Shown in pieces: positions 194 through 54,292 of a stretch of DNA of 54,292 nt. Positions within the stretch are counted from its first letter, which is position 1. The number at the start of each line of letters is the position of its first letter. Source of the DNA: a virus; IMG/VR virus record IMGVR_UViG_3300007517_000008, positions 1 to 54,292 of that record, one strand, 5' to 3'. A program made the translations under genes and the position numbers. The notes beneath the pieces were generated by a model. It ran no database searches. It worked only from the letters and a program-made list of their open reading frames with translations, and was not told where the DNA came from.

Positions 194-877
194 ATGGCAA
201 GACTTTTTTCTACTTCCAAAGAAAGTCAATACATCAACGATTTGACCAAAGAACTTATTAAAGACATTATTGGTCAATTCATCAATTATTACCCGGTATC
301 TACTCTTAAAACTCAAGTGCACCCAGTTTATGACGAGGCTGTGCAAAAAATCTTTGACAGCCCAATCAAACTTAACGTTATGGCTGGATGGCCAGAGACA
401 AAAACGTACGCAGGAGTCTTTGGGGTAGAAAAAACGGCAACAATAGAAATATTTGTTCAAGCAAGAGATTTGATTGACAAAGGTTTTACAATTTACGAAG
501 GTGATTTCTTTACGTTTGCCGATCAAACTTTTGAAATTATTTCCTTCAACACCTTAAATAATATTTTTGGCCAAGAAGAATATGAGGTAGGTTACAAAAT
601 AATTGGGAATGCTGCACGTCTTGGACAATTTGATCCCAAGAACTTCCTAACGCCAAACAAGGATTCTGCTGGTCCTTACACAGAGACGCAAGTCCAAACC
701 GTGTTTGAACAGCAAAGAGGTTTGCCAGAAACTCCAATTGATGGCGTTACAGGAGACGTCAGACAAATGCGCGATCGTCTTGGAGATCAAATGGCCCCAA
801 CAGCTCTCGGAGAAGGTCCAAGAGTTGTCACGGTTGAACCAGACGACAAGGTATCTTCTTTCTATAATGATGAATAA
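194..877 (+). CDS. Neck / head-tail connector protein, gp14-like
   Basis: 227 residues. The N-terminal helix (about 9-30) is followed by a mixed region containing HPVYDEAVQKIFDSP and then a segment near 100-140 with EGDFFTFADQTFEI and a following YEVGYKI strand. This order (start helix, beta region, 'EGD..F' strand, 'F.I..' strand) resembles gp14 neck proteins of T4-like marine phages, which close the head for tail attachment. The C-terminal 80 residues are polar and probably flexible. The gene lies before the gp15-, gp18- and gp19-like genes, as expected in a T4-type order, with four kinase-like genes inserted between. The assignment rests on pattern resemblance and context, not on a catalytic motif. 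Confidence 0.5.
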   Translation: MARLFSTSKESQYINDLTKELIKDIIGQFINYYPVSTLKTQVHPVYDEAVQKIFDSPIKLNVMAGWPETKTYAGVFGVEKTATIEIFVQARDLIDKGFTIYEGDFFTFADQTFEIISFNTLNNIFGQEEYEVGYKIIGNAARLGQFDPKNFLTPNKDSAGPYTETQVQTVFEQQRGLPETPIDGVTGDVRQMRDRLGDQMAPTALGEGPRVVTVEPDDKVSSFYNDE

Positions 878-885
878 GGTAATTT

Positions 886-1704
886 ATGCTAAAAGAATAC
901 ATTGAAGAGTTGGTTAATGAAGTTCTTAGAGGGTTCAACCTAAGTAAGTTCAAATCTATTGCAGGTACAAACGAAAGAGAACAATCAAAAAACCCTCGGG
1001 AATATGAAGGGGAGATCCCGGAACTTAACTACGCCCAGAAGATGTTACCCTATTTGGGTCAAGGCACTTCCAGATCGACATTTGCTTTGTCTGGTGGGAA
1101 AGTTCTTAAAATAGCTACAAATGATGCTGGTGTTGGTCAAAACCAAGCAGAGGTTGAAATTTGGTCTAACTCTAAGTCACCTTACATCACACAAGTTTAT
1201 GACAATTCTCCCGACTACAAGTGGATTATTGCAGAAATTGTTAAACCATTGTCAGAAAGTGAAATGATAAGCTATCTTAGTGTTGATGAATCGGTTTTGC
1301 AAGACATTACCTGGTTGACCCCCACAAGTATTGAAAGTGTAACAAGCAGATACCAGAACAAAATTGATGAAAAGCAGGCAATGATTGATGGTTATCAATC
1401 GAAAATAGACCGAGGGGAAGGGCTAGAACATTTAGAAGCAATGAAGAGAACGATGCAGTCTGGTTATCAAGTTCAGGCCAAGAGCCAGGAAATTTTAGAT
1501 AATCAAACGTTATTGTCCTTTTTGGGAGGAATGATTGATCTTGTCAATAATCATGGTCTTTTGTGGGGAGATATCCACATTGAGCACTTTGGAAGAAATG
1601 CTCAAGGGCAGATTAAATTACTCGACTATGGATATAATGATGAGGTGCGTATAAAATATTATACTTCCGCTCCTTCTTCTCCTACTCCCTCATATTCAAC
1701 CTAA
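886..1704 (+). CDS. Kinase-fold protein with N-terminal helical tag, tandem copy 1
   Basis: 272 residues. Residues 1-17 form the amphipathic tag (MLKEYIEELVNEVLRGF) shared with the next three genes. A kinase-like core follows: glycine-rich loop GQGTSR (58-63), candidate ATP-binding Lys75 in VLKIA, a candidate alpha-C Glu near 89, catalytic-loop-like WGDIHIEHFGRN (227-238) and LLDYG (245-249) in the DFG position. The Asn normally binding Mg next to the catalytic Asp is His (H234). A charged, probably coiled-coil insert fills about 150-200. The tail after 257 is Ser/Pro-rich and unlike the other copies. The start context is AATTTATG without a clear Shine-Dalgarno. Substrate unknown; it could be a pseudokinase. 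Confidence 0.65.
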   Translation: MLKEYIEELVNEVLRGFNLSKFKSIAGTNEREQSKNPREYEGEIPELNYAQKMLPYLGQGTSRSTFALSGGKVLKIATNDAGVGQNQAEVEIWSNSKSPYITQVYDNSPDYKWIIAEIVKPLSESEMISYLSVDESVLQDITWLTPTSIESVTSRYQNKIDEKQAMIDGYQSKIDRGEGLEHLEAMKRTMQSGYQVQAKSQEILDNQTLLSFLGGMIDLVNNHGLLWGDIHIEHFGRNAQGQIKLLDYGYNDEVRIKYYTSAPSSPTPSYST

Positions 1705-1713
1705 TATAATTTT

Positions 1714-2520
1714 ATGCTAAAAGAATATATTGAAGAGTTGGTTAATGAAGTTCTTGGAGGGTTTAATCTTTCAAAATTCAAAGCTATTGCAGCTACAAAT
1801 GAAAGAGAGGAAGGAACTGTTGGATATGACGGAGAGGCCCCAAGTGAAAGTCAAGCCACCGAAGCACCAGAAGTTCAGTATGCCAAGAAGTTGTTACCCT
1901 ACATGGGTAAAGGCTCTTCCAGAATTACCTTCGCCCTGTCGAGCAGCAAAGTGCTGAAGATTGCTTTAAACCAAGCTGGAGAATATCAAAACCAAGCTGA
2001 AGTTGATATTTGGTCTAACTCCAGGTCTCCTTATCTTACACAGGTTTATGACTTCTCGCCTGATAATCGATGGTTAATAGCAGAAATAGTTAAAGTTATA
2101 GAACCTCAAGATTTATATAACATTTTGAATATTTCACCAAGAAATTTTGGTGAAGCCCTTTTTGCGCGACCAAATTCTATTGAAGAATTTAGAAATAACT
2201 ACGAACACAGAAATGAGTTTCTGCTAAAAGATAATGCTTCGGTAGAAGCAGAAATTAGAACAACGCAAGAAAATGGTGGAAACCCTAGTAAGTTCTTGTT
2301 ACGTAAAAGACAAAAAAATAAAGAAACCATAGCATCCAGACAATCGGTTTTGGACAGCAAAGCATTTATGGGTTTCTTTGAGAATATAATTAACCTTACT
2401 ACAACGTATGGGATATTGTGGCAAGATATTCGTGTTGACCATTTTGGTAGGAACGTTCAGGGGCAAATTAAATTACTCGATTTTGGACTTGATTTAAAAA
2501 CAAGCAGAGAATTCTACTAA
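1714..2520 (+). CDS. Kinase-fold protein with N-terminal helical tag, tandem copy 2
   Basis: 268 residues. It starts nine bases after copy 1 stops, and its first 20 or so codons are nearly identical in DNA to copy 1, pointing to fairly recent tandem duplication. Conserved elements are the tag (1-17), glycine-rich loop GKGSSR, VLKIA lysine, WQDIRVDHFGRN catalytic-loop-like segment and LLDFG. As in copy 1, His replaces the Mg-binding Asn. The middle (about 130-215) is a divergent charged helical insert that differs in every paralog, which suggests it sets partner or substrate specificity. A true kinase would use the retained Asp residues; this is not provable from sequence alone. Confidence 0.65.
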   Translation: MLKEYIEELVNEVLGGFNLSKFKAIAATNEREEGTVGYDGEAPSESQATEAPEVQYAKKLLPYMGKGSSRITFALSSSKVLKIALNQAGEYQNQAEVDIWSNSRSPYLTQVYDFSPDNRWLIAEIVKVIEPQDLYNILNISPRNFGEALFARPNSIEEFRNNYEHRNEFLLKDNASVEAEIRTTQENGGNPSKFLLRKRQKNKETIASRQSVLDSKAFMGFFENIINLTTTYGILWQDIRVDHFGRNVQGQIKLLDFGLDLKTSREFY

Positions 2521-2531
2521 AGTGAAAATTT

Positions 2532-3356
2532 ATGTTAAAAGAATATATTGAAGAGTTAGTTAAAGAATCTCTAAGAGGATTTAGTATTTCCAAATTTAAG
2601 GCAATCTCGGACAATGCCGAAAGAAAGCCTGAAGATCCTGGTTATGGAGAGGATGACATACCAGGATACGACAATGTTTTAATGGCTCCAGAGATTGACT
2701 ATGCTGAGAGATACCTTCCTATGCTTGGCGAGGGATCTTCCAGAATTGTCTTCGCCCTGTCAAGCGGCAAAGTCTTGAAGATCGCCCTTAACAAAGCTGG
2801 AGAGGGTCAAAATGGCGAAGAGGCAGAGGTTTGGTTTAAGTCTAGGTCACCTTACATCACGCAGGTTTATGACTTTTCCAAAAATAACAAGTGGATTATT
2901 TCAGAGATCGTTAAGCCGATAACTGAAGAGGATGTTGAGAGAATTCTTGAGATAGACAAATTTGTATTTTTAATGTTTCTTGCACAGCAACCAGCAAAAC
3001 TTGAAGATATTCACTATGTTTTTCAAACAAAGATTAACTACTCAGAAGATGTTATTGAGACAAAAAAAGCAGAGCTAGAGTGGAGCGACAGTGCTGATGA
3101 AAACACTAAGGCAAAACTTCAAAGCGATATTGAATTTGAAGAGGAGCAAGCTAATATTTACAGAAATGCAATTAGTAATAAAGTTTTTACGGAGTTCATG
3201 AGCGTTATTATAAATTTGGTAAACACGTACAGCCTTCAGTGGAACGACATTAACAAAAATCATTTCGGAAGAAATGTTCAAGGGCAGATTAAGTTATTAG
3301 ATTTTGGCTATAGTACCAATGTTGCAAACGATCACTACTCATACGAATTGTCTTAA
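2532..3356 (+). CDS. Kinase-fold protein with N-terminal helical tag, tandem copy 3
   Basis: 274 residues, same architecture as copies 1 and 2: tag MLKEYIEELVKESLRGF, a linker, GEGSSR loop, VLKIA lysine, a helical insert (about 135-220) and WNDINKNHFGRN followed by LLDFGY. The catalytic-type Asp and the DFG Asp are kept and the Asn-to-His change is shared. It lies 11 bases after copy 2 and 3 bases before copy 4, so the four genes form one transcription unit with the neck-like gene upstream. No promoter is apparent between copies. Confidence 0.65.
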   Translation: MLKEYIEELVKESLRGFSISKFKAISDNAERKPEDPGYGEDDIPGYDNVLMAPEIDYAERYLPMLGEGSSRIVFALSSGKVLKIALNKAGEGQNGEEAEVWFKSRSPYITQVYDFSKNNKWIISEIVKPITEEDVERILEIDKFVFLMFLAQQPAKLEDIHYVFQTKINYSEDVIETKKAELEWSDSADENTKAKLQSDIEFEEEQANIYRNAISNKVFTEFMSVIINLVNTYSLQWNDINKNHFGRNVQGQIKLLDFGYSTNVANDHYSYELS

Positions 3357-3359
3357 TTT

Positions 3360-4169
3360 ATGCTAAAAGAATATATTGAAGAATTGGTTAATGAAGTGCT
3401 TAGAGGATTTAACTTTAATAAGTTTAGAGCTATTTCTGGTACTAATCATAGGGAAGATGATTATCACGTAAAGAAAGAATTGGAAAGACCTGAAAAGTTT
3501 TTGTCTAAATCTAAGGAACAGGAGTACGCAGAACAGTTCTTACCTTTTCTCGGCAAAGGAAGTTCTCGTGTTACATTCGCCTTTTCTGGCGGGAAGGTTC
3601 TTAAAATAGCTACAAACCAAGCAGGTTATGGCCAAAACAAGGCAGAAGTCCAAGTATGGACATTTACGCAGTCCTCAATTGTAACAGAAGTTTATGATCA
3701 TTCGCCTGACTACAAGTGGATTATTTCAGAAATTGTTAAGCCTTTTCCTATTTTTGATTTTTTTAATAGTTTGGGAATAAACTATCATCAGTGGCAATTT
3801 ATGGCGGGTTTATATAAATTAAGAAGTTTTGAAGATTTTAAAACGCAAATTAATGAAAAAATATTGTATTATAATGAATCTATTGTTTATTTGAATAAAC
3901 AACTTGAAGATCCAAGAAAATTGTTTCCGTATGAAATTGCGAGAAATAAAGAAACAATAGAAGAACATCAAGTAGAAATTGAAGACCTACAGAATATATT
4001 TAGTAATGAAAAATTTCTTTCCTTCATGGAAAATTTAATAAATTTAGTAAATGGTCAAAAGCTTGAGTGGGGTGATATTGTGCCTAAACATTTTGGTAGG
4101 ACTGTTAAAGGCGAAATTAAACTTTTGGATTATGGCTACAATGATGAAGTGTCGGACAAATTCTACTAA
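3360..4169 (+). CDS. Kinase-fold protein with N-terminal helical tag, tandem copy 4
   Basis: 269 residues. The tag is again MLKEYIEELVNEVLRGF. The core contains GKGSSR, VLKIA, WGDIVPKHFGRT and LLDYGY. The insert (about 130-210) is the most divergent of the four and rich in aromatic and charged residues. It is the last paralog before the gp15-like gene, 30 bases downstream. It ends in the same short C-terminal motif (YNDEVS.KFY) seen in shorter or altered form in the others. Function unknown beyond a kinase-like fold; placement among virion genes suggests a virion-associated or late role. Confidence 0.65.
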   Translation: MLKEYIEELVNEVLRGFNFNKFRAISGTNHREDDYHVKKELERPEKFLSKSKEQEYAEQFLPFLGKGSSRVTFAFSGGKVLKIATNQAGYGQNKAEVQVWTFTQSSIVTEVYDHSPDYKWIISEIVKPFPIFDFFNSLGINYHQWQFMAGLYKLRSFEDFKTQINEKILYYNESIVYLNKQLEDPRKLFPYEIARNKETIEEHQVEIEDLQNIFSNEKFLSFMENLINLVNGQKLEWGDIVPKHFGRTVKGEIKLLDYGYNDEVSDKFY

Positions 4170-4199: not shown

Positions 4200-5456
4200 A
4201 TGTCAACAAACCCTAAAGATACCGAAGAGAATAACGTCACTAGACAAAACATCCCTCAGCAAGACCCTAGTGAGAATATTGATGTCTTGCCAAGTGGTTA
4301 TGGTAATGATGGCGGCGGCTTACCCACGGAAGATTATCAAATACCTTCTTGCGGTATAGAAGACTGCGACATAGCTCTGTTTAATTTATTTAACAAGACA
4401 ATTAAGTTTAACACTCAGATTTACGGTGACGGTCAAAGTTCAATCTATTTGCAAAAACCAAAGGTTATCTTTGCCACTGGTGAGAAGTTTGCTCTTGCTA
4501 AGAAATTACGTCCACCAAGAGACAAGAATCAAGTTCTTATGTTGCCTGCGATTTCCATTCGTAGAATGTCTATTGAACAAACACCTGAAGACATGACTTC
4601 AAGAGGAATGAACCAAACGACAGGGGAGATTACAATCAAAAGAAGACTTTCCGAGAAGGATGACTTTTCTTTCCAAAATACAATCAATAAAATTGGCCTT
4701 AAAAATATGCCAAATGTTGGAAATTCTCTTGACGAAAACAAAACTGGCAATAAGAAGAATTCTTATGAAACAAGAGAAGGAATGATTTTAGCTCCACAAC
4801 TTTCTCAAAACGTCTTTGAATTCTTCACAATACCACAACCACAATTTTTTACAGCAAAGTATGAAGTTGTTTTTTGGACAAACCATCACCAACACATGAA
4901 TTATCTTATTGAGACTCTCATGTCATCTTATCTACCACAAGACAAGATGTTCAAACTTGGAACCGACAAAGGTTATTGGTTTATGGCCTATGTAGAGGAC
5001 TCAATGACATCTCAGGACAACTTTGAAGACTTCTCTACGACTGAAAGAATTATTAGATACAACTTCAACATGAGCGTAAAGAGTTTCATCCTGGCTTCTT
5101 CGGGGCCTGGTAACATGATTCCAGTCAGGAAATATCTGTCTGCTCCGACCATTTCCTTTGAGATTGTCCAAACGCCAACAACAGATATTCTTTCGCAAAA
5201 AAACTTAGACGCGCCTCCACTAGTGAATCTATCGGACAGCAGATTCTTATTATCAGATATTAATGAAAAGGTCACACCGCCAGAAGATTCTGGACAGGTT
5301 ATGCTTTTCAAAAAAATAGTTGTCGAGCCAGGCACAAATAAAAAATCTGTAAAGTACATTAAGCAAACAACAAAAAATAAAAAGAAAGGAGAACGTTCTT
5401 TTACAGCCTCGGATATTCAAACTCTACAAGAGTTTTTATATAACGAATCCAAGTAA
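4200..5456 (+). CDS. Tail terminator / sheath stabilizer, gp15-like
   Basis: 418 residues. The N-terminal 45 residues are polar and probably disordered. The folded part contains LFNLFNKTIKFN, a long insert with KRRLSEKDDFSFQNT, LPAISIRRMSIEQ (compare the LPRMSFEI type strand of gp15 proteins), and a C-terminal block near 215-300 (YEVVFWTNHHQHMNYLIETL, then YNFNMSVKSFI). This order matches the tail-completion family gp15 of T4-like phages, which caps the tube and sheath at the neck. The last 90 residues are an extra lysine-rich extension. Position just before the sheath genes supports the call. Confidence 0.65.
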   Translation: MSTNPKDTEENNVTRQNIPQQDPSENIDVLPSGYGNDGGGLPTEDYQIPSCGIEDCDIALFNLFNKTIKFNTQIYGDGQSSIYLQKPKVIFATGEKFALAKKLRPPRDKNQVLMLPAISIRRMSIEQTPEDMTSRGMNQTTGEITIKRRLSEKDDFSFQNTINKIGLKNMPNVGNSLDENKTGNKKNSYETREGMILAPQLSQNVFEFFTIPQPQFFTAKYEVVFWTNHHQHMNYLIETLMSSYLPQDKMFKLGTDKGYWFMAYVEDSMTSQDNFEDFSTTERIIRYNFNMSVKSFILASSGPGNMIPVRKYLSAPTISFEIVQTPTTDILSQKNLDAPPLVNLSDSRFLLSDINEKVTPPEDSGQVMLFKKIVVEPGTNKKSVKYIKQTTKNKKKGERSFTASDIQTLQEFLYNESK

Positions 5457-5614: not shown

Positions 5615-8600
5615 ATGACCGAGCAGATTTTTAAAGCACCAGGATTTTTTGATAGAGAAATTGACCTTACAAACGAGGTACAACGTCCAACTGGAATTCC
5701 TGCTGGTGTAATCGGCACTGCCGAAAGAGGACCAGCCTTCGTCCCACTCACGGTTGGATCTTTTCCTGACTTTACCACAAAGTTCGGTTCACTCAACTCC
5801 AAGATGCCAGGTTTATATGCAGCTAACTTGTTTCTCAAAAACAGGTTCTCCCTTACGTACATTCGTACACTTGGAGCAGGCGCAAACGAAACAACAGCAG
5901 AAATTGAAACTACAAGAGCAAGAGGGACTGTAACAAATGCAGGTTTTGCAATTACGTCATCTCCCGTTGGACATGCTGGGGATGGTCGTACTAACGCAAC
6001 AGTTCAATTTTTAACAGCTCGACACGAAGTTTCTTCGGGAGAGATTTTGGGAATGCCTTTGTTCTCGGATAACGATTCATATTTTACAACAGGGTCGATG
6101 TTGGATGTCAATCTTGTCCGTGGAATGTTGTTTTCTGCATCTGGCTCCAGAGTTATGATTCTTAACCCATCAGAAAATTGGACAAACGTAGCAGACGACT
6201 TTGCAACTACAGATTCTAGCAAAAAGATTAAAATTGTTATTTCTTCCAGCGCAGGTGCTTCCTTTGCATCTACGGATGGCATTGCAGGAATTAAAATCTT
6301 GTCAGCTTCTTTTGACCCTTCGTCATCAGATTACTATGCAAAGGTTCTTAACACCGATCCAAATAAATTCAACGAAGAGAAACACCTTCTTTATCTCAAC
6401 TTTGCAGTGGACAATGAACTTGCAACTCTTTCGACAGGTTCTAACGCAATCTGTATCGCAAGCGGAAGTTCAAACGTTTCCCTTAATTCTGGCGATGTAA
6501 ATCTACCATTCAGAAATGCTTTTGGTAAATTTGACACAAGATACACAACTCCAACAACTCCTTCTTTCATCTCGCAGCCATTCGGTAATACAGAATATGA
6601 TCTTTTCCGAATTGAAACGCTTGACGATGGCGCATATTCAAATAAACGTATTAAGATTTCAATTGCAAACATTAAGGCTTCTACAGATCCAAAGAATCTT
6701 TATGGAACCTTCGCTGTACTTGTAAGAAACTTTGGAGACGACGACGTTAGCCCAGAAATTCTTGAACAGTTCAACAACTGTACATTGAACCCAGACTCCG
6801 ACAACTACGTTGCAAGAGCAATTGGAAATATTAAGGTTTACTTTAACTTTGACGTGGAAAATGAAGACGATCGTCGTCTTGTGCGTTCTGGTCGATATGC
6901 TTCCAGGTCACAGTACATTCGCGTCATTATGTCTCCAAGCGTAGAAAACAAGACGTTAAACCCAAATTGCCTTCCCTTCGGATTTAGAGGCGTTAAGACT
7001 TTAGGAACAAACACACTTCTTACGGATGCAGTAGGAACGGTTGGCGCTCAACGACTTACGGCTTCAGGTTCGGTCTCAGTCACAGAGGCAAGACTTATGC
7101 ACGCTCTTGTTCCACCACTTCCATTCAGATTTAAGGTTACAAGAGGAGAAATTTCTACAACTCCAAGCTTTGTTGGTTCTCCAGGTGCTACAGAAATTGC
7201 AGATTCTCGTTACTATTGGGGTGTTAAGGTTTCCAGAAATAACAACAACATTCTTAACACAAACATCAATGGCGAAATCAACGACGGTGTTCGCGCCTAC
7301 ACGGCATTTGCTGGAATTGAAAAGCTTGATACCTTGGTAACAGGTAGTTCAGCAGACGTATTCAACAACAACAAATTTACTCTTGCAAAAGTAGCTTTGT
7401 CTTCAACAACGATTTCTGGACTTACTGCTTCCGTTGACGCACACATGAAAGAGGCTTCGTACCTCCGCAACGGAAACACGAGTCCTTCCGACTATAGAAT
7501 TAACGATACATACTTGAATAGAGTAACGTTTGCAACGCTTTTGCAAACTGCTACACCAACAACCTTTAACAGATTTTCTGAATATGCCAAGTTTACCACA
7601 GTTGTTTATGGTGGATTTGACGGATTCAACATTCTTGACAAAGAACAAGTGGGAATGACCGACAAGGCAACTTCTGCTGAAACTGGTGGTGGTGCAAACG
7701 CTGCTTACATTTCACCAGGCTTTGGTAACAACCAATCGGGAACTTCTAAAAAGAATAACGCAGTTGCTTCCTTCAGAGTTGCAGCTAAATTGATGACAAA
7801 CCCCTTTGTCTCAAATGTTAACATCGTAACAACGCCAGGTCAACGAGAACCCCTTGTAACCGATTTCGTTGCTGATGTAGTTAAGACATACGGTATGGCT
7901 CAATATCTTATGGATATTCCATATTATGACTCGAACTCAGTTCGTATTTTCGATGGTGAAACAAAGTTTGTGTCAGTTAACAGAACAGCAGACGTTTTTG
8001 AAACTCGCGCTCTCGACACAGAATTTATCTCTCCTTACTTCCCAAATATCGTAGTTGAGGATTCCACAAACAACAACCGAAGAGTTACGCTTCCAGGTTC
8101 GGTAGCAGCTTTGTCTGCAATAGGATTTAATGATAAAGTTGCATACCCTTGGTTCGCTCCTGCTGGCTTCAATCGTGCTTCCCTTGACTTCGTTAAGATG
8201 ACACAAGTGAAGGTCTCACAGCCAGAGCGTGAGCGTCTTTACACTGTAAGAATTAACCCTATCATCAAGTTACCAAACGAAGGTTTCGTAATCTATTCGC
8301 AGCAAACGCTTGAGCAGGCTGGTTCGGCACTACAGTCGCTTAACGTACAGAGAATGATTATTTCGCTTAAGCAACAGATTCAGGCTGCTGGAAATCAGAT
8401 CATTTTCGAACAACTTACTCCAGACCTTCGTTCGCGTTTCGTGAACTTGGTAAAACCAATTTTGGCAACAGTTCAAATACGAGATGGTATTGAAAGATTC
8501 GAAGTTATTTCAGATGAAAGAAATAACACGGAACAAGACATGCTAGCAAATCGTATGCGCGTTAATATCAAGGTTGTTCCAGTAAGAGCAGCAGAATTTA

Positions 8601-8650
8601 TCGCAATTGACTTCATTATATCATCAAGCGGAATCACTTTCGTTAATTGA
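5615..8650 (+). CDS. Contractile tail sheath protein A (gp18-like)
   Basis: 1011 residues, longer than T4 gp18 (about 660). The start has a GAGG ribosome-binding site (AGAAGAGGATTAAATG). The N-terminus carries the sheath signature PAGVIGTAERGPAFVP (29-44). The conserved C-terminal domain contains AYPWFAPAGFNR, YTVRINPIIKLP and a RMIISLKQQI helix, followed by VNIKVVPVRAAEFI near the end. This region mediates ring stacking and contraction in the sheath family. The variable central domains are expanded. Product forms the outer tail cylinder that contracts to drive the tube through the host envelope. A second full-length paralog follows directly. Confidence 0.93.
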   Translation: MTEQIFKAPGFFDREIDLTNEVQRPTGIPAGVIGTAERGPAFVPLTVGSFPDFTTKFGSLNSKMPGLYAANLFLKNRFSLTYIRTLGAGANETTAEIETTRARGTVTNAGFAITSSPVGHAGDGRTNATVQFLTARHEVSSGEILGMPLFSDNDSYFTTGSMLDVNLVRGMLFSASGSRVMILNPSENWTNVADDFATTDSSKKIKIVISSSAGASFASTDGIAGIKILSASFDPSSSDYYAKVLNTDPNKFNEEKHLLYLNFAVDNELATLSTGSNAICIASGSSNVSLNSGDVNLPFRNAFGKFDTRYTTPTTPSFISQPFGNTEYDLFRIETLDDGAYSNKRIKISIANIKASTDPKNLYGTFAVLVRNFGDDDVSPEILEQFNNCTLNPDSDNYVARAIGNIKVYFNFDVENEDDRRLVRSGRYASRSQYIRVIMSPSVENKTLNPNCLPFGFRGVKTLGTNTLLTDAVGTVGAQRLTASGSVSVTEARLMHALVPPLPFRFKVTRGEISTTPSFVGSPGATEIADSRYYWGVKVSRNNNNILNTNINGEINDGVRAYTAFAGIEKLDTLVTGSSADVFNNNKFTLAKVALSSTTISGLTASVDAHMKEASYLRNGNTSPSDYRINDTYLNRVTFATLLQTATPTTFNRFSEYAKFTTVVYGGFDGFNILDKEQVGMTDKATSAETGGGANAAYISPGFGNNQSGTSKKNNAVASFRVAAKLMTNPFVSNVNIVTTPGQREPLVTDFVADVVKTYGMAQYLMDIPYYDSNSVRIFDGETKFVSVNRTADVFETRALDTEFISPYFPNIVVEDSTNNNRRVTLPGSVAALSAIGFNDKVAYPWFAPAGFNRASLDFVKMTQVKVSQPERERLYTVRINPIIKLPNEGFVIYSQQTLEQAGSALQSLNVQRMIISLKQQIQAAGNQIIFEQLTPDLRSRFVNLVKPILATVQIRDGIERFEVISDERNNTEQDMLANRMRVNIKVVPVRAAEFIAIDFIISSSGITFVN

Positions 8651-8725: not shown

Positions 8726-11716
8726 ATGGCTTCAAATTCTAAATCAGCAGGCGTAACTGCCAGAACTTTTAACCAAACGGGTCCAACTGCCTTGTCTCCA
8801 ATTGGCATTCCCGCTGGCGTTATTGGCACTTCAGAAAAGGGACCAGCCTTTGTGCCTGTTACGGTGCCAACGACTCAAGACTTCATCGTAAATTTTGGAA
8901 GAACCGGAGAGGGTGCCATTGATGGACCTTTGGCTGTTTCTGAGTGGTTAACATCACAACAAAGTGCAACTTTCATAAGAGTTCTTGGCATTGGCGATGG
9001 TAATCAAAGAGTTACTGCTGGAAACAATAAGGGTAGAGCAGCAAATGCAGGCTTCATTGTTGGAGAGAGACAACCACAAACGCTTCTTTCAGGCGCTCTT
9101 GGCCCAAACGTTTTTGCTGTTGCTCAATCAGGCGCAGACTTAGGTCCAGTAGGAAGAACTTATTTACTTGGTACATACATGAGTCAGTCGGCAGGTTCTA
9201 CTATCTTTACTGAAGCTGGACTTTCTGCACAAGGCGTACCTGTCCTTCGAGGAATGGTCATGGCTGCTTCTGGAGTTGTAGTTACGCTGTCGTCTTCCAT
9301 AAATGGAAACAACATAGTTCCAAGCAGAACGCTTGCAGCAGTTACAGCGAACATCAGAGGTGCAATGACTGGTGCTGTTGACCTATCTTTTGGTAAACAA
9401 GAGTTCGTTATGTTCTTAAATGGACACAGAGCGCTTGACTTGGAATATCCAAACTTTATTACTGCTAGTTTCGACCCAACGGCAGCAAACTACTTTGGAA
9501 GCGTCTTGAACAAAGATCCGTTGATGTCAGAAAAAGCCGGATATACACTTTACAGCCACTTCGACATTCATCCAGCACTTGCCGTTCCAAGCGGTTCCGG
9601 TGCATTATCAAGTGGTTTTGGAGCACTAGAAAGAATTGCATTCTTAGTCACAGGTTCGGCAACAAGAAATTCCGGTTCTACAACTTCCCCAAACTTTGAA
9701 AACTTTGAAGATAGATTCAAGCCTTCACAATCTCCTTGGGTTATTTCGCAATTGTTCGGCGGAAAGCCAGAGAATTTATTTAAAGTTTGGACAATTTCTG
9801 ATGGCGCAGGCGAAAAGGTCAAGATTTCGATCGAAAACATTTCTCCAAGTTCTTCGGAACAAAATCTTTATGGAACATTCGATCTTCTTGTAAGAGATTT
9901 GTCTGATTCGGACCGTAACAGAATGGTTCTTGAACAACACCGAGGTCTATCGCTTGACTCTGATGCTCCTAATTATATTGGAAGAGCAATTGGAAACTAT
10001 CGTCCATTTTATAACTTTGAAGCTCGCAGCGGAGAACAAAAGCTTGAAATCGAAGGCGAGTACACAAACAACTCAAGATACATCAGAGTTGAAATTGCAG
10101 ATGCACTCAAGGATAAAAATGTTGATGCAACGGCACTTCCTTTTGGATTTAGAGGAAACCAACACTTGATGACTTCTGGTTCTGCACCAATTGGTGCATA
10201 TACAGACACAGCCATTCTTGCTTCTCCAAACCCTTTCAACAGACTTGTACAGCCACCACTGCCAATGAGACAGAACTTGTCAAGAGGAGCAGTTGGTAAT
10301 ACTTCAGGAGACAGAGCACTTTTCTGGGGAGTTCAATTCGAGAAGGTTATTTCCGTATCCGAAACAAATGCGTCAACAGCTCTCAACCCGAGCCTTCTAA
10401 GTTACATGAAATATTTTCCAGCCTTCCACACGGAGTGGCAGAATGTTGTAGTTAGAGATAATCCAGATGTCTCTGATACTGTGGCAAACGGTATTATTGA
10501 TGCTGACAGATTTAACAACAACTTGTTCTCTTTGGGCAAGATTAGAGTTCCATTTTTGGCAGCTTCTAACACACCTGACATGAATTCACTTGAAAACTGG
10601 GTTTATGTTCGTGCTGGAAACATTGTTACGGGGACTCCTGTCGGTACACGTGCCTTGACCGTAGAGGACTTGAAAGATCCAACCGTACGTCAAGTTGCAA
10701 AATTCTCCTTCTTTGTTGAAGGCGGATTCGATGGTGTGCGCGTGTTCGACAAGGACACAGCACAAATTTCAAATAAGGCTGTGGTTGAAGAGTTGTTGAA
10801 CTCAAACCGTCTTTTGTCTTCTGGGCCTTCGGTTAAGTCGTATGAGCGCGCTCTTTCTGTAATTTCCGATGTCACGGAAGTAGACATTCAGTTGTTGGTA
10901 ATGCCTGGTATTCGTCACAGATACCTCACAGATCAAGCTACTGCTGTTGCCGAGACAAGATTCGACGCTCTTTACATCATGGACATTGAAGAAAGAGATA
11001 CAGCAAACACAACAATTTCTTCGGAAGATCAAATTGTTTCAGTTAGAAACACGGTCAACAACTTCAGAGCACGTGGAATTAACTCTTCCTTCGCAGCAAC
11101 ATTCTTCCAAAATCAGATTATCAGAGACAATATCGCAAATGTTGTTCGTGAAGTTCCTCCCTCTGTTGCTGTACTTGGTGCCTTCGCGAAGAATGACGCC
11201 ATTGCTCACCCTTGGTTCGCTCCAGCAGGCTTTGCAAGAGGCTCGCTTGACAATGTGCAGGAGTCGGCAGTCAAGCTCTCCAGAGAGAACATGGATGACC
11301 TTTATGCAGTTGGAATTAACCCAATCATCGGATTTCCAGGTTCGGATGGAACGGTTGTTTGGGGTCAGAAGACACTATTGGCAACACCAAGTTCGCTTGA
11401 AAGAATTAACGTTCGTCGCCTTCTATTGACGCTTCGTCGTCAAATTAGAAAAGTTGCAAACAGATTCTTGTTTGAACCAAACAGAGCAACAACCCTTGCT
11501 AGATTCTCTCAATTGTGTAACCCAATTCTTAAGAGAATTCAAGATCAAAAGGGTGTTTCGCAATACCTTGTCAAGATTGACACAACAACCACAACTGAGG
11601 TTGATATCCAAAACAAGACCATTCGCGGAAAAATTCTTATTGTTCCAGTGAGAAGCCTTGAGTTCCTTGAACTTAACTTCACGCTAGCAAATAATGGTAA
11701 CTTCAACATCGCCTGA
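8726..11716 (+). CDS. Contractile tail sheath protein B (gp18-like paralog)
   Basis: 996 residues, paralogous to the preceding gene over its whole length: PAGVIGTSEKGPAFVPVT at the N-terminus, NLYGTFDLLVRDLSD in the middle (NLYGTFAVLVRNFGD in sheath A), AHPWFAPAGFARGSLDN and YAVGINPIIGFPG near the C-terminus, then IRGKILIVPVRSLEFL. Divergence is considerable, so the duplication is old and both copies are probably functional. The start has AAGGA upstream. Two sheath proteins could make a mixed or zoned sheath. The gene begins 75 bases after sheath A, with TATTTACT at 8688-8695 in the gap. Confidence 0.92.
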   Translation: MASNSKSAGVTARTFNQTGPTALSPIGIPAGVIGTSEKGPAFVPVTVPTTQDFIVNFGRTGEGAIDGPLAVSEWLTSQQSATFIRVLGIGDGNQRVTAGNNKGRAANAGFIVGERQPQTLLSGALGPNVFAVAQSGADLGPVGRTYLLGTYMSQSAGSTIFTEAGLSAQGVPVLRGMVMAASGVVVTLSSSINGNNIVPSRTLAAVTANIRGAMTGAVDLSFGKQEFVMFLNGHRALDLEYPNFITASFDPTAANYFGSVLNKDPLMSEKAGYTLYSHFDIHPALAVPSGSGALSSGFGALERIAFLVTGSATRNSGSTTSPNFENFEDRFKPSQSPWVISQLFGGKPENLFKVWTISDGAGEKVKISIENISPSSSEQNLYGTFDLLVRDLSDSDRNRMVLEQHRGLSLDSDAPNYIGRAIGNYRPFYNFEARSGEQKLEIEGEYTNNSRYIRVEIADALKDKNVDATALPFGFRGNQHLMTSGSAPIGAYTDTAILASPNPFNRLVQPPLPMRQNLSRGAVGNTSGDRALFWGVQFEKVISVSETNASTALNPSLLSYMKYFPAFHTEWQNVVVRDNPDVSDTVANGIIDADRFNNNLFSLGKIRVPFLAASNTPDMNSLENWVYVRAGNIVTGTPVGTRALTVEDLKDPTVRQVAKFSFFVEGGFDGVRVFDKDTAQISNKAVVEELLNSNRLLSSGPSVKSYERALSVISDVTEVDIQLLVMPGIRHRYLTDQATAVAETRFDALYIMDIEERDTANTTISSEDQIVSVRNTVNNFRARGINSSFAATFFQNQIIRDNIANVVREVPPSVAVLGAFAKNDAIAHPWFAPAGFARGSLDNVQESAVKLSRENMDDLYAVGINPIIGFPGSDGTVVWGQKTLLATPSSLERINVRRLLLTLRRQIRKVANRFLFEPNRATTLARFSQLCNPILKRIQDQKGVSQYLVKIDTTTTTEVDIQNKTIRGKILIVPVRSLEFLELNFTLANNGNFNIA

Positions 11717-11743: not shown

Positions 11744-12823
11744 ATGAATAAACTTGATGTAAAAAAAATAATCAAAGAAGAGGTCAAAAAGTCTCTGCTT
11801 GAAAACAGAGAAGCTAAGAAGGTTATTTTAGAAAGCCGCCTTCTTATTATTAATGAAATGATTTCTCTTTCGGAAGCGGATTTCATTAACCGAGCAAAAC
11901 AATGGCTTAAGTCAAAGGCTTTCGGTGCCGAACAAGGCGTAAGAGACACGGTTAAAAATAGCGTAATGGTTAATCCGGAAAAGATTGTTTCCGATCCTAA
12001 TTCTGTACAGAAAATTCTTGACACAGCAATCAAAAATGCACAGTCACAAATTACCAAATTTAGGTCACAAACGCTACAAACATCAACAAGCATCAACAAT
12101 CTTCAAGACAATATTTTTGACCTTTTTGGAAAGTTTTTCAATCTTCTTGATTCAATTCCACAAGAAAAACGTGGACAGTATGAAAGAGAAGTCATGAAAG
12201 TTGTTTCTGTATTTTACAATCTCTTGATGGAAGAAAAGAAGAGAATTGAAGTTTACATTTCTGCTCTTGCGAGAGAAGCATCAACTCAGGGTTATAACAT
12301 GGGTTCTTCGTCTCCTGAAATGTCCTCATATTCAGGTGCCAAAATTTCCCCAACTACCCAAGCTACTCAAGGAAAAGCAGCCGTTGGCGGATCTGCTTTA
12401 ATCCCACAAGGAGTGCGTGAATCTTTGGATGTAAAAAAAAAAGTAATTGTGCCAAGACCTCAAATGTCTATGTCGTCAAATGAAGAGGAAGCTTCGTCGC
12501 CTGTAGATTTAAGTGACCTAGAAAGGCCACTTGAATCACTTATGCACAAAAACAAAATACCTTGGTTTTCCATGGGCACAAGGTCATCAGGCGATCAACA
12601 AATACTTATTATTAAAATGTCATTGGATAATAAGTCAAATTGGCTTGACGGTATTCTGCACAATTCTCGATGGGCTCAAGCAAGCATTGAGTTGCATAAA
12701 GGTGTTTATACAGTAGAGCAAAGATATGGAACAATAAAGCCAATATTACGTTCTGCTAAAGTATTAACTCCAGAGGCAGCTTTTGGAAAGTTTGAGAAAT
12801 GGCTTTCACAGGTTCAAGTTTAA
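11744..12823 (+). CDS. Unknown tag-bearing protein between sheath and tube genes
   Basis: 359 residues. The N-terminus (MNKLDVKKIIKEEVKKSLLE) is a tag-like amphipathic helix, followed by a second helix with LLIINEMISLSEADF. Residues 60-190 are predicted largely helical or coiled coil. A Ser/Thr/Gln-rich linker leads to VPRPQMSMSS (about 235-245), which is repeated in the next gene. The C-terminal 95 residues (IPWFSMGTRSSGDQQILI onward) look like a compact mixed domain. No known family recognised. Position between sheath and tube and the late-gene context suggest a virion or assembly protein. Confidence 0.6.
   Translation: MNKLDVKKIIKEEVKKSLLENREAKKVILESRLLIINEMISLSEADFINRAKQWLKSKAFGAEQGVRDTVKNSVMVNPEKIVSDPNSVQKILDTAIKNAQSQITKFRSQTLQTSTSINNLQDNIFDLFGKFFNLLDSIPQEKRGQYEREVMKVVSVFYNLLMEEKKRIEVYISALAREASTQGYNMGSSSPEMSSYSGAKISPTTQATQGKAAVGGSALIPQGVRESLDVKKKVIVPRPQMSMSSNEEEASSPVDLSDLERPLESLMHKNKIPWFSMGTRSSGDQQILIIKMSLDNKSNWLDGILHNSRWAQASIELHKGVYTVEQRYGTIKPILRSAKVLTPEAAFGKFEKWLSQVQV
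12441..12481 (+). repeat. 41-bp direct repeat, copy 1 (encodes VVPRPQMSMSS-like motif)
   Basis: Bases 12441-12481 and 13081-13121 are identical except at three positions by eye, exactly 640 bp apart, and lie in different genes in the same reading frame. They encode [IV]VPRPQMSMSS[ND] followed by an acidic, Ser-rich stretch. Confidence 0.85.
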
Positions 12824-31555: not shown

Positions 31556-31585
31556 TTTACGAAACGTTGTGTAATAACGTATAAT
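31556..31585 (+). promoter_or_regulatory. Sigma70-like promoter for uvsX
   Basis: TTTACG (31556-31561), 18-nt spacer, perfect TATAAT (31580-31585). The ATG at 31584 lies within the -10 element, so it cannot be the start of a message from here; the next in-frame ATG at 31641 is preferred. Confidence 0.75.
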
Positions 31586-31640
31586 GAACTCTGGCGTCAA
31601 ACTTAAAAAGTCATGCGCCCATAACAAAAAGAAACAAAAT

Positions 31641-33374
31641 ATGGCAAAACCAAAAGAAGAAAAAAAGGCTAAGGAGCCACAAAAGCTTGGTGTTGAATCT
31701 GCAAACATTAATGAAATTAATGACTTCTCGCAGGAACTCATCAAGCAAATTAACAAAGAGTATGGGGGCAACATTGCTTTTAACCTAGGAACTGACTCTG
31801 CTCCTACGGATATTAAAAGATGGATTCCAACAGGATCGAGACAACTCGACTGTGTTTTGTCAAACAAGCTTCACGGGGGATACGCAGAAGGACGTATTGT
31901 TGAAATTCAAGCCCAGCCAAGCGTAGGTAAGTCTCACATAGGCTTTCACCTTGCTAAGTCCGTCCAACAAATGGGTGGAATTGCAGTTTACATCGACACA
32001 GAAAACGCAACAAACCCAGAGAACTTGAAGTCTCTTGGAATCAACGTGTCAAAGAGATTTGTATTCGTACAGAATTCTTGCACGGAAGAGATTCTGTCAA
32101 TTATCGAAAGTACAATCACCAAGGCTAGATCTATGTCGAGAGACGTACCAGTAGCCGTAATTTGGGACTCTGTTTCGCAGAGTGCTCCGAAGGATGAAAT
32201 CGAAGGAGGTTATGACAAAGCTACAATTGGTCTTCAGGCAAGAGTTTTGTCAAAGGGAATGCGTAAGATTGCAAGCGTTATTGCAAATCAAAAGGTCATT
32301 CTATTTTTGATCTCTCAGCAGAGAGTCAAGATTGGCTGCGTAAGTCCAGAAACTGAGGTCATGTATAGGTTTGATGGCAAAGAATCTAGCAAGTCTGTTA
32401 GCTCAATGTTTAAAGATTTAGGATACGATTTTAACGAAATGGCAATAAATAAGCCTGTAGATGTCCAAAACGTAGAAGTTCTTTCCTTGGAAGAAAACAA
32501 AGAAGTTTGGAAAAAAATTACCAAAATTGTAAAAAAGCAGAATGCTCAAGAAATGATTGTCAGGGTAAACCATCTTGATGTTCGACAACTTTCATGCTCC
32601 CCAGATCATAAATTGTTTGTGCGTGTCAAAAATTCAAATGTTGAAATGTACGAAGAGGTTTCTGTTTTGTTTGAAAACGAAGAAAATTTCTTAGTAAGAA
32701 CACTGGATGGTTGGGAAGATTTTTCTATAACTGAATCTGGCCAAATGATTGAAATTGCAGACTTTGAAGTAGAAGGCACTCATTGTTATTTTAGTAATGG
32801 ATTTTTATCACACAACACAATGTTCGGCGACCCTAACGTCACTTCTGGTGGTATGGCAATTCCATATGCTGCTTCTGTAAGAATAAAGTTGAATGGTGGT
32901 AAACCACTTGTTGACAAAGAAGGAAATACCTATGGCATCGAGGTAACAGCCAAGACAATCAAAAACAAAACCTCTAAGCCATTCAGAGAGTGCACTTTCC
33001 AAATTCACTTTGGAAAGGGTATTGTGGAGCATGAAAACATTTTTGACTATCTTAGAGAATATTATGAGAAGAAGCCAGCAACTCTTTGTGACGGAGTGAT
33101 GGTAAACGTTTCTGGTGGTGGAGCATGGAAGATTTTCAGAGGAGCCGACAAAGAAACTGGAGAGGTTCTTTTCGAGAAAAAGTTCTATAAAGAAGGTTTC
33201 GGAAAGGAAGTTCTTTATAACAAAGAATATACCAAGTATGTTGATGCCATGATGGAAGATGCTTATGTTATCAAGCCAAATGAGGATGATCATCAAACAG
33301 AAGCAGAATTTGATGAGGAATCTGAAGAAGAACTTAGGGCAGTGGCGCAAATAGCTGAAGAATCTGGAGAGTGA
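31641..33374 (+). CDS. uvsX: UvsX-like RecA recombinase interrupted by a mini-intein
   Basis: The precursor has 577 residues; removing a 160-residue intein leaves about 417, near the 391 of T4 UvsX. Exteins show TGSRQLDCVLSN, Walker A QPSVGKSH, Walker B-like VAVIWDSV, the LFLISQQRVKIG strand and, after the intein, TMFGDPNVTSGG, which is the RecA loop 2 (compare GVMFGNPETTTGG). The C-terminus is acidic. UvsX polymerises on gp32-coated DNA for strand exchange and recombination-dependent replication. The start is the ATG at 31641 because the longer frame begins inside the -10 element. dUTPase follows 3 bases later. Confidence 0.92.
   Translation: MAKPKEEKKAKEPQKLGVESANINEINDFSQELIKQINKEYGGNIAFNLGTDSAPTDIKRWIPTGSRQLDCVLSNKLHGGYAEGRIVEIQAQPSVGKSHIGFHLAKSVQQMGGIAVYIDTENATNPENLKSLGINVSKRFVFVQNSCTEEILSIIESTITKARSMSRDVPVAVIWDSVSQSAPKDEIEGGYDKATIGLQARVLSKGMRKIASVIANQKVILFLISQQRVKIGCVSPETEVMYRFDGKESSKSVSSMFKDLGYDFNEMAINKPVDVQNVEVLSLEENKEVWKKITKIVKKQNAQEMIVRVNHLDVRQLSCSPDHKLFVRVKNSNVEMYEEVSVLFENEENFLVRTLDGWEDFSITESGQMIEIADFEVEGTHCYFSNGFLSHNTMFGDPNVTSGGMAIPYAASVRIKLNGGKPLVDKEGNTYGIEVTAKTIKNKTSKPFRECTFQIHFGKGIVEHENIFDYLREYYEKKPATLCDGVMVNVSGGGAWKIFRGADKETGEVLFEKKFYKEGFGKEVLYNKEYTKYVDAMMEDAYVIKPNEDDHQTEAEFDEESEEELRAVAQIAEESGE
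32337..32816 (+). other. Mini-intein in UvsX (160 aa, no endonuclease)
   Basis: It starts with Cys1 in CVSPETEV (block A), carries SPDH in LSCSPDHKLFV (block B) and ends GTHCYFSNGFLSHN (blocks F and G) with the canonical His-Asn. The +1 extein residue is Thr. There is no LAGLIDADG or HNH motif and no space for one, so it is a splicing-only element. It sits between KIG and TMFG, just before the DNA-binding loop 2 of the recombinase. Confidence 0.92.
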
Positions 33375-42750: not shown

Positions 42751-43203
42751 ATGAAGAACGTTAAAACAGAGGTAAAGGTTGATAATAGAAATTTTCTTCC
42801 TTATTTTGGTCCCAAAGGTACAAAATATGTTTGGAATAATGGAGGTCTTACCTATCTGCCAAGGATTACTACTGTGTCAGTGTTCCCATCCCCAAATTCC
42901 TACATGTGCTCGCTTGACGCCTACGTCCAGTTGCGCAGTTATGCTTACTCAGATGGCACTTTCCAGACTACCGCTACATTCTTTGACTGGCGAAATAGTT
43001 TTGTGATGAAAAAGTCGCGTAGGTATAAAAATGAACTTACGGCATTGTTGAAAGCTGAAGAGATTGCGGATTCGTGGGTAGCAACATTTCCCAAGTGGGT
43101 TATTCGCGCAGCTAAAGAGGGATGGCGTTCACCTACATTTGAGCGTCGCAAAGGATTAGGAAAAAATGTTTTGGATTTGGATAAAGGAGTAATTAGCAAA
43201 TGA
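42751..43203 (+). CDS. Unknown protein upstream of the HAD nucleotidase
   Basis: 150 residues with many aromatic and basic residues (FLPYFGPKGTKYVWNNGG, TATFFDWRNSF, ATFPKWVIRAAKEGW). An upstream TTG at 42724 is possible, but the promoter's -10 would then lie inside the gene. The stop overlaps the next start (ATGA), which implies translational coupling with the nucleotidase. No family recognised. The basic aromatic composition would suit nucleic-acid binding, though this is speculation. Confidence 0.6.
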   Translation: MKNVKTEVKVDNRNFLPYFGPKGTKYVWNNGGLTYLPRITTVSVFPSPNSYMCSLDAYVQLRSYAYSDGTFQTTATFFDWRNSFVMKKSRRYKNELTALLKAEEIADSWVATFPKWVIRAAKEGWRSPTFERRKGLGKNVLDLDKGVISK

Positions 43204-43833: not shown

Positions 43834-44445
43834 ATGAATCTCTTAGCAAATCTAATCTCAAGACTTATCGTAGAAGAAATAAACTTTGAAGAGTTTAAGC
43901 AATCTATTAACAAAGCTGAGTACGCAAGTAAAAACGGGAAGTACCTTGGACAAGGCTCTTCTCGTTTTGTTTTTGACCTAGAAAACGGGAATGTCCTCAA
44001 AATAGCAGACGGAAATTCTGGGTTAGTGCAAAATAAACAAGAGATAACAATTTGCAATAAATTTTGCAAGTCTGGTTTATTTGCGAAAATATTTGACTTC
44101 GACCCAAACTATGAATGGCTTGTTATGGAAAAAGTCAAAACTTGGTCAGAGGACGAATTTACAAAGATAATTGGTTTTGGAGACCAACAATTAGGAGCTT
44201 TTTTAATTCAGGCAGAAAAAAATGAACCAACCAAGGAAGGTTTTGAAGCAACAATAAAAACCTCGATGAGATGGCATTGGTTCTCGGAAGCTTATAAAAA
44301 AACAACCCCAGAAGGATTGAAGCTTTTAAATGTAGTCTTCACTCTTGCCTCAAAGTATGGAATTAATGATATTGACAGATATGATCATTTTGGAACAACA
44401 AACAGCGGAAAGATAGTGGTACTCGATTATGGCCTCAAACTCTAA
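43834..44445 (+). CDS. Fifth kinase-fold paralog, shorter and more degenerate
   Basis: 203 residues, clearly related to the four tandem genes at 886-4169: tag-like MNLLANLISRLIVEEINFEEF, glycine-rich GQGSSR, VLKIA lysine, EWLVMEKVK hinge region, RYDHFGTT and VLDYGL at the end. The catalytic-loop Asp is shifted (DIDRYDHFG instead of DI-x3-HFG), so activity is doubtful. It lies 40 kb from the tandem set, among nucleotide-metabolism genes. TATTTACT (43815-43822) precedes it. The following tag gene overlaps its end by 17 bases. Confidence 0.65.
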   Translation: MNLLANLISRLIVEEINFEEFKQSINKAEYASKNGKYLGQGSSRFVFDLENGNVLKIADGNSGLVQNKQEITICNKFCKSGLFAKIFDFDPNYEWLVMEKVKTWSEDEFTKIIGFGDQQLGAFLIQAEKNEPTKEGFEATIKTSMRWHWFSEAYKKTTPEGLKLLNVVFTLASKYGINDIDRYDHFGTTNSGKIVVLDYGLKL

Positions 44446-44644
44446 ACATAAATTATATTCACTACTAAAAGAAATCATCGAGGAAGAAATTGCTCTTGAT
44501 GAATTTAATGCCATTGGCTCCGGGGCTGTCTCAGGCGTTGCTAGTGACAAGAAAAGTATTAACCAGACTGGCTCTCCTTTTGATATAGACATGAAGCCAC
44601 AGCAAACCAAGATTTGGTCAGGGGATAAACCTTCTTCAGCCTAA
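44429..44644 (+). CDS. Small tag-bearing protein overlapping the kinase-like gene
   Basis: 71 residues. LYSLLKEIIEEEIALDEFNA (9-28) matches the tag consensus, and the remainder is Ser/Gly/Lys-rich and probably disordered. It overlaps the preceding kinase-like gene by 17 bases in another frame. The tag followed by almost nothing folded is an extreme case of the pattern and supports a sorting or packaging role for the helix. No family recognised. Confidence 0.55.
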   Translation: MASNSKHKLYSLLKEIIEEEIALDEFNAIGSGAVSGVASDKKSINQTGSPFDIDMKPQQTKIWSGDKPSSA

Positions 44645-53476: not shown

Positions 53477-54292
53477 TTATTTTAATTTCTTAAGTGTTTC
53501 TAGGTATCCACTTGTTATGGATTCTAAAATAACTTTTGGGTCAAACACCATAGAATGTACAGGTTGGTGATGATCTGGAAAATAAAGGTTAATTTTAGGA
53601 CAAGAAAAATTATATTCTATTTTCCTAGAACCCTTTTTGCAACTTTGCGCTTTCTGCAAAAGAGCCATAGCCTCTTGTTCATGGTTCTTCTTCGCCTTTA
53701 GAACCGTGTAGAAGTCGTTGGTGTAGACTTGCTCGGATAAGATTTCCGATGCCCTTAGAGCTACCTTGGGAGCGTTTACCACATATTCTTTAAGTACAGC
53801 AAGGTCGCTTGTAATTGGAGATGTTAAAACAACATCAATTTCATCTGGCCTTTCTTTTAGGCATTCCAAAAGTGGTATTTGATAACGAATACCACCATCA
53901 ACCCATTGCTCACCGTCTATTAAAATTGGAGGAAAAACTACTGGCAAGTGACTGCTTGCCAAAATATATTGTTTAATGTTTGAACGAGAGTTATCAAAAA
54001 CCTCATATTTTCCGCTCGTAAGAGAAACGCAACCAACTGTTAATTTTGTTGTTGACGTAGCTGAAAGCTCATCGCTCCATATAGAGTCAAAAAGTTTTTC
54101 AAGTGGAGTGCCAGAATTAATGGAACCCATAATCATAGAGGCTATATAATTTGGAACTTTATATGGAATCCAAGGTTTGTAGATATTATTGGAAGAAGAA
54201 ATGTTTTTCCACAAGTTTTCAAGTTTGAAAAAATTAATTAACTGATCTCTCGGAGAATACAGTGACAAAAAAGAAGCATTTAGGGCTCCTAC
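53477..54292 (-). CDS. Patatin-like phospholipase, 5' truncated by window edge
   Basis: The frame is open through the window edge, giving 271 residues. The first residues read VGALNASFLSLYSPRDQ, the usual sequence around the patatin nucleophile elbow (G-x-S-x-GALNA); the nucleophile Ser itself is just outside the window. DGGIRYQIPL is the catalytic Asp motif (DGG). SSHLPVVFPP fits the patatin core between them. Such enzymes hydrolyse acyl esters of membrane phospholipids. A TTG at 54268 could be a start, but the upstream coding fits the family, so the gene continues. Position beside probable structural genes allows a lysis or virion role. Confidence 0.8.
   Translation of the reverse strand, partial: VGALNASFLSLYSPRDQLINFFKLENLWKNISSSNNIYKPWIPYKVPNYIASMIMGSINSGTPLEKLFDSIWSDELSATSTTKLTVGCVSLTSGKYEVFDNSRSNIKQYILASSHLPVVFPPILIDGEQWVDGGIRYQIPLLECLKERPDEIDVVLTSPITSDLAVLKEYVVNAPKVALRASEILSEQVYTNDFYTVLKAKKNHEQEAMALLQKAQSCKKGSRKIEYNFSCPKINLYFPDHHQPVHSMVFDPKVILESITSGYLETLKKLK

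Follow-up and report, generated by a model that had tools for sequence, protein, structure and literature searches.

The window analysed here is the whole 54,292-nucleotide stretch of IMG/VR virus record IMGVR_UViG_3300007517_000008, which comes from an environmental, Far-T4-like phage related to T4. It contains five copies of a gene for a reduced protein-kinase-like protein, four of which lie back to back in the virion-building operon (886-4169). The proteins have a two-lobe kinase fold with an altered metal site, and the four tandem copies start with a helix that is not specific to kinases. Tentatively, and with somewhat less than even confidence, we read the four as late-made kinases that modify the host, are docked on or loaded into the virion, and carry diversified substrate inserts.

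Four kinase-fold paralogs in tandem

The array consists of four intact open reading frames (ORFs), separated by intergenic gaps of 3-11 nucleotides:

886..1704, plus strand: kinase-fold paralog 1, 272 amino acids (ORF; phrog_4301, E 2e-18; motifs)
1714..2520, plus strand: kinase-fold paralog 2, 268 amino acids, with an N-lobe, a helical insert and a C-lobe ending just past DFG (AlphaFold2, Foldseek)
2532..3356, plus strand: kinase-fold paralog 3, 274 amino acids (ORF; phrog_4301)
3360..4169, plus strand: kinase-fold paralog 4, 269 amino acids (ORF; phrog_4301; AlphaFold2)

Pairwise amino acid identity between these paralogs is 41-48%, and each contains the motifs G-x-G-[ST]-S-R, VLKIA, D-I-x3-H-F-G-R and L-L-D-[FY]-G. 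A preliminary description, made from the DNA sequence alone, had reported this array and its motifs. Both were confirmed by the intact ORFs and a motif check, and the tandem count of four was right, but the fifth paralog at 43834-44445 had been missed. Its remark that the 5' ends are nearly identical in DNA was somewhat overstated, as the first 98 nucleotides of copies 2, 3 and 4 are 88%, 68% and 82% identical to those of copy 1. A second IMG/VR contig (31,757 bases) represents the same virus. One of its differences from the window falls inside paralog 3, as a single-nucleotide polymorphism at the second position of codon 225. Pseudogene decay was ruled out, since all ORFs are intact and this contig differs at 8 of 31,757 bases. 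Paralogs 3 and 4 (2532-4169) share one frame with only TAA TTT between them, so that read-through of the stop would yield a double kinase. No obvious Shine-Dalgarno sequence was seen by eye before paralogs 2 and 4.

A reduced kinase fold

The kinase fold proposed in the preliminary description was borne out by a sequence profile, structure prediction, a fold search and a catalytic-loop alignment. All five copies match phrog_4301 (E 1.5e-13 to 2e-18), a family of unknown function. A profile of the five copies ranked Ser/Thr kinases first among PDB sequences (STK24, E 1.4e-3). Pfam, NCBIfam and PADLOC profiles gave nothing convincing for the five copies, and at E 10 neither PF00069 in the window nor PF18762 (Kinase-PolyVal) was matched. 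A defence-system protein was ruled out, as PADLOC gave no match.

AlphaFold2 models of paralog 2 (predicted local distance difference test, pLDDT, 86; predicted template modelling score, pTM, 0.77) and paralog 4 (pLDDT 83, pTM 0.73) lead from the strands of the N-lobe and helix C over a hinge and a long pair of helices to the catalytic loop and DFG, and then end. In a Foldseek search of the PDB, aminoglycoside phosphotransferases were the best matches, together with MEK1, mycobacterial Pkn kinases, the archaeal RNA kinase Ark1 and, for the N-lobe only, SAICAR synthase. The probabilities of these matches were 0.75-1.0, but their E values were about 2e-3 and their template modelling (TM) scores 0.2-0.34. 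Among viral models, Foldseek retrieved uncharacterised phage proteins with E values down to 1e-10. Sequence and AlphaFold2/Foldseek results together assign a two-lobe kinase fold with an ATP site. The chain ends 10-23 residues past DFG in paralogs 1-4 and 3 residues past it in the fifth, and by the models the paralogs are a minimal kinase fold without the C-terminal subdomain (activation segment, alphaF-alphaI). Judged by Hanks criteria they fall outside the canonical protein kinases, as the catalytic-loop Asn, the C-terminal subdomain and a PF00069 match are all missing.

A scan of bacterial genomes returned four matches, from Bryobacterales contigs (37-40% identity). These were rejected as homologs, as they were confined to the catalytic loop and the one examined, L085, proved to be a Ser/Thr kinase of the ordinary type, with HRDIKPSN. 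The alignment of the catalytic loop to such ordinary kinases nevertheless provides independent support for the kinase assignment, and it aligns the His of the window copies with the metal-binding Asn.

The altered metal site

The beta3-Lys, alphaC-Glu, catalytic Asp and DFG-Asp are retained in all five window copies. We aligned nine group members, namely the five window copies, the L009 kinase, two kinases from the related genome G003 and one from G013 (IMGVR_UViG_3300021090_000010). The Gly-rich loop, beta3 Lys, alphaC Glu and DFG Asp are invariant in all nine. So is a His at the position of the metal-ligand Asn, as the preliminary description had noted for the four tandem copies:

2440..2442, plus strand: codon of paralog 2 for His243, which occupies the kinase metal-binding Asn position (invariant in nine relatives; alignment to HRDIKPSN kinases)

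The His and Arg of the HRD motif are absent, and in the G013 kinase Glu replaces the catalytic Asp. Outside the group, the metal position is Asn in 121Q, phAPEC6, Munch, RaK2, Hallingskeid, Slicko01 and the second copy of Rhodothermus phage RM378, and Gln in RM378 p120. On these alignments, His is a group-specific state and Asn the common state outside the group. A family tree did not resolve the order of the deeper branches.

The altered metal ligand, and the aminoglycoside phosphotransferases and Ark1 among the fold matches, could also indicate transfer of a non-phosphate group or action on RNA or small molecules (AMPylation, an Ark1-like tRNA kinase or an aminoglycoside-kinase-like enzyme). 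We consider this very improbable, as the fold matches are weak and scattered across the entire kinase-like fold, and the profile search ranks Ser/Thr kinases best.

Constrained lobes and diverged inserts

Between the lobes, the paralogs contain a helical insert:

2098..2355, plus strand: diverged helical insert of paralog 2, residues 129-214, with equivalents in the other three (AlphaFold2 helices; dN/dS)

In the model of paralog 2, the insert helices span residues 156-186 and 193-214, ahead of the catalytic loop. Among paralogs 1-4, 14-24 of about 92 insert residues are identical (alignment z 3.7-7.1). The central inserts thus differ strongly, as had been described, but they are homologous, and swapped, unrelated inserts were ruled out. 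The ratio of nonsynonymous to synonymous substitutions (dN/dS) had been suggested earlier as a way to compare insert and frame. It lies at about 0.1-0.4 for the N-lobe and the C-lobe and at 0.7-1.0 for the insert; dS is saturated. These ratios indicate that the lobes are under constraint and that the insert is nearly free to change; as dS is saturated, positive selection on the inserts cannot be claimed.

Insertion between neck and tail genes

The array is flanked by the following genes:

194..877, plus strand: neck-like gene upstream of the insertion (orthologs adjoining the gp15-like gene in G013 and Mel-JY01)
4200..5456, plus strand: gp15-like tail terminator/stabiliser downstream of the insertion (PF16724; 46% identical ortholog in G013)

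Orthologs of the upstream gene are 41% (G013) and 26% (Mel-JY01) identical. The downstream gene matches T4 gp15 at a sub-threshold level (PF16724, E 0.055) and is followed by sheath genes. In the Microcystis phage Mel-JY01 there is a one-base overlap between the neck-like and gp15-like genes, and G013 has a single small ORF between them, which identifies the kinases as an insertion and agrees with the position given in the preliminary description. The kinase gene of G013 is located elsewhere, between the gp23 capsid gene and a head-tail adaptor. The sheath genes are two consecutive, very long tail-sheath-like genes of about 1000 amino acids each (5615-8650 and 8726-11716), and the same pair occurs in G013.

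A structural-operon position in two phages would suit pseudokinases, that is, ATP- or protein-binding scaffolds that aid neck/tail assembly or mask host factors, with the tag docking them on the virion. The change from Asn to His in all nine group members, the Glu of the G013 kinase and the incomplete HRD motif could be explained in the same way. This explanation seems unlikely to us. The Lys, Glu, catalytic Asp and DFG-Asp are intact in the five window copies, dN/dS is low in the lobes of the four, and His can ligand a metal. Moreover, neither Mel-JY01 nor G013 has a kinase gene at the neck-gp15 site, so the kinases are not needed for that joint.

A modular N-terminal helix

By sequence comparison, the N-terminal MLKEYIEELVNEVL helix of the tandem kinases is modular, as unrelated proteins from this group of phages begin with it too. 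In the AlphaFold2 model of paralog 2, a helix is predicted with low confidence for the first 13-14 residues, and an unordered linker separates the N-terminal helices from the kinase core. A position-specific model of this tag, built solely from proteins of G003 and G013 that are not kinases, identified the following features:

886..939, plus strand: N-terminal helical tag of paralog 1 (MLKEYIEELVNEVLRGFN)
1714-1767, 2532-2585 and 3360-3413, plus strand: tag equivalents in paralogs 2-4
11744..12823, plus strand: non-kinase protein with a tag-like N-terminus, 16.0 bits
12843..13577, plus strand: non-kinase protein with a tag-like N-terminus, 10.6 bits
14799..15155, plus strand: non-kinase 118-amino-acid protein with the same LKEYI core (MNEKYLKEYILSLIEEHL), 16.4 bits
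15180..15509, plus strand: non-kinase protein with a tag-like N-terminus, 12.0 bits
44429..44644, plus strand: 71-amino-acid tag-bearing protein adjoining the fifth paralog, 11.3 bits

Paralogs 1-4 score 20.2-20.3 bits, compared with a maximum of 8.7 among 383 internal windows. At least 10 bits are reached by 5 of the 47 non-kinase N-termini of the window and by none of the 383 internal windows (Fisher p 1.3e-5), and four of these five additional genes fall in the structural region. In a T4 control of two stretches with 115 ORFs, none scored 8 bits or more. When single genomes were left out of the model in turn, enrichment was strong for the window and moderate for G003. A collection-wide search for DNA encoding MLKEYI-x-x-L-[VIM] returned this virus and chance matches, and no further tag carriers.

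Five G003 proteins begin with a similar helix: two kinases, a 5'-nucleotidase-like protein (NT5C, 7e-9), a tRNA nucleotidyltransferase (PolyA_pol, 1e-33) and a 553-amino-acid protein. The window protein at 43200, which is syntenic with the G003 nucleotidase and similar to it by eye, begins directly at the catalytic segment; as its G003 counterpart has the helix, the helix is an add-on. The 71-amino-acid window protein (44429-44644) and the tag-linker of a G003 kinase (L010 8605-9435) have LDEFNAIG[SA]GxVS in common downstream of the helix; in some proteins the add-on may therefore extend past the helix.

Small tag-like genes follow the S77 prohead protease gene in G013 (PF03420, 1.3e-21) and in Mel-JY01; the window does not include its own head region. 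From this context, together with the four tagged genes in the structural region, we infer that the tag is a virion signal. The preliminary description had pictured a conserved delivery frame with variable segments. A helix common to unrelated proteins fits part of that picture, but T4 capsid-targeting peptides are not resembled: the 13-column tag model gives negative scores for Alt and for the T4 internal proteins IpI-III, and equivalence to the T4 peptide was therefore rejected.

The fifth paralog

The remaining copy lies outside the tail operon:

43834..44445, plus strand: fifth paralog, 203 amino acids, with a short insert (phrog_4301; neighbourhood as for the G003 kinase copies)

Upstream of it is a nucleotidase-like gene, and downstream are a conserved 123-amino-acid gene and a thymidylate-synthase-like gene. 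As this neighbourhood matches that of both G003 kinase copies, the fifth paralog probably occupies the older site, and the quartet in the tail operon probably arose by expansion. Its N-terminus resembles the tag weakly (2.8 bits with the non-kinase model).

Elsewhere in the window, the RecA gene (31584-33374) matches RecA in two stretches split by an intein-like segment (PF14890 intein splicing domain, E 1.7e-4). The ribonucleotide reductase small chain (36530-38545) also matches in two stretches, with an in-frame insertion that by eye resembles a second intein. In L009 (416-2488), a DnaB-type helicase gene is interrupted by an intein/endonuclease-like segment (by eye). A patatin-like phospholipase is encoded at the window end (53477-54292; PF01734, 9e-10), and a patatin-like ORF was noticed by eye at 25218 in G003.

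A possible role in host modification

Our reading takes the fold, the conserved site, the modular tag and the structural-operon location as its observed base; late expression, activity, loading, injection and targets are steps that we infer. The quartet would be expressed late with the structural module. The helix would act as a docking tag that takes its cargo to phage assembly, most likely to the prohead core or the virion, and the tagged kinases would be carried into the next host. There they may act on host targets by phosphorylation or by some other transfer from ATP. The diversified insert would choose the target, and cell takeover or disarmed defences would result. Four copies would then provide four target specificities on one common frame. 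Overall, the evidence tentatively suggests particle loading and host delivery of the tagged kinases. A broader version, in which the LKEYIEELVNEVL-like helix is a Far-T4 addressing code that loads kinases, tRNA nucleotidyltransferase and nucleotidase into the virion, and the four kinases with their differing inserts and His metal site are injected as a multi-kinase effector kit borne by the virion, is an unlikely extension.

Several observations weigh against delivery in the virion. Tag enrichment is weak when G013 is left out, and the T4 internal proteins and Alt fail the tag model. The tagged genes of G003 sit among nucleotide-metabolism genes rather than head genes, and the G013 kinase, which does adjoin the capsid gene, is untagged and has Glu instead of the catalytic Asp. 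In addition, gp500c, the untagged relative in phAPEC6, is missing from the virion proteome table of that phage (PMC7247149), although its absence is compatible with either kind of explanation.

The phAPEC6 case would also be expected of ordinary host-takeover kinases that act in the producing cell, with the helix as a tether to a replication/assembly complex or as a stability element. The tag is carried by a tRNA nucleotidyltransferase and a 5'-nucleotidase as well, enzymes expected to work in the infected cell, and relatives lie within terminal-repeat regions. We regard this as possible but rather unlikely, given that four copies lie in the structural operon with more tag-bearing genes nearby. 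T4-type phages express their structural module late.

If the tag is a virion-loading signal, it would make injected proteins predictable from their sequences across a large group of phages that is almost uncultured, and kinases would have a delivery route like that of T4 Alt. The quartet offers four inserts on a single frame as a natural kinase series. Together with the Asn, Gln and His variants of the metal position across the family, it could serve to test whether a reduced kinase that lacks the C-terminal subdomain is active.

Comparison with known systems

The preliminary description knew of no comparable phage system, which was too strong a claim. The phrog_4301 family occurs in jumbo phages and in RM378 with one or two copies per phage. 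Proteins of 121Q/phAPEC6, Munch, RaK2, Hallingskeid and RM378 belong to the same family by profile or alignment, share the GxGSSR-type loop and a short C-lobe that ends soon past DFG, and are present in two copies in 121Q and RM378. Unlike the window copies with their His, these relatives keep Asn (Gln in RM378 p120). The jumbo-phage proteins are untagged, and none of these relatives forms a structural-operon tandem of four. In several jumbo phages the kinase gene lies within the annotated terminal repeats, which supports a role in host takeover. Four tagged copies in a structural operon were found nowhere else in the collections searched, and scans of viral contigs with the fifth paralog and the L009 and G013 kinases gave no new relatives.

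Our reading is further supported by precedents. Reduced kinases without a C-terminal subdomain have been described in prophage polyvalent proteins (PMC5512222). These Kinase-PolyVal domains (PF18762) lack the whole subdomain, keep most active-site residues and have been proposed to be delivered with phage DNA (PMC5512222); unlike them, the window kinases are stand-alone genes of a T4-related phage and do not match PF18762. T4 Alt, a host-modifying enzyme, and IpI-III are targeted to the capsid and injected. They share with the window proteins a short N-terminal peptide on unrelated cargoes, and within the phage group an S77 prohead protease is present in the relative G013; the window tag differs from the T4 peptides. 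Kinase-like proteins are present in virions of the cyanophages S-CRM01, S-TIM5 and S-CREM2 (PMC10665884). These phages are also T4-related, but their kinases belong to other families and lack the tag; S-CRM01 and S-TIM5 gave no phrog_4301 or A2 match. Finally, T7 gp0.7 and JSS1_004 are phage kinases that act on host and defence proteins, and JSS1_004 disarms DndFGH (PMC12345140). The analogy drawn here is one of function; these kinases are expressed early and have a shutoff domain. The kinase family and reduced kinases were therefore already known; what is new here is a set that carries the tag, has His at the metal position and has expanded to four copies within the structural operon of a Far-T4-like phage.

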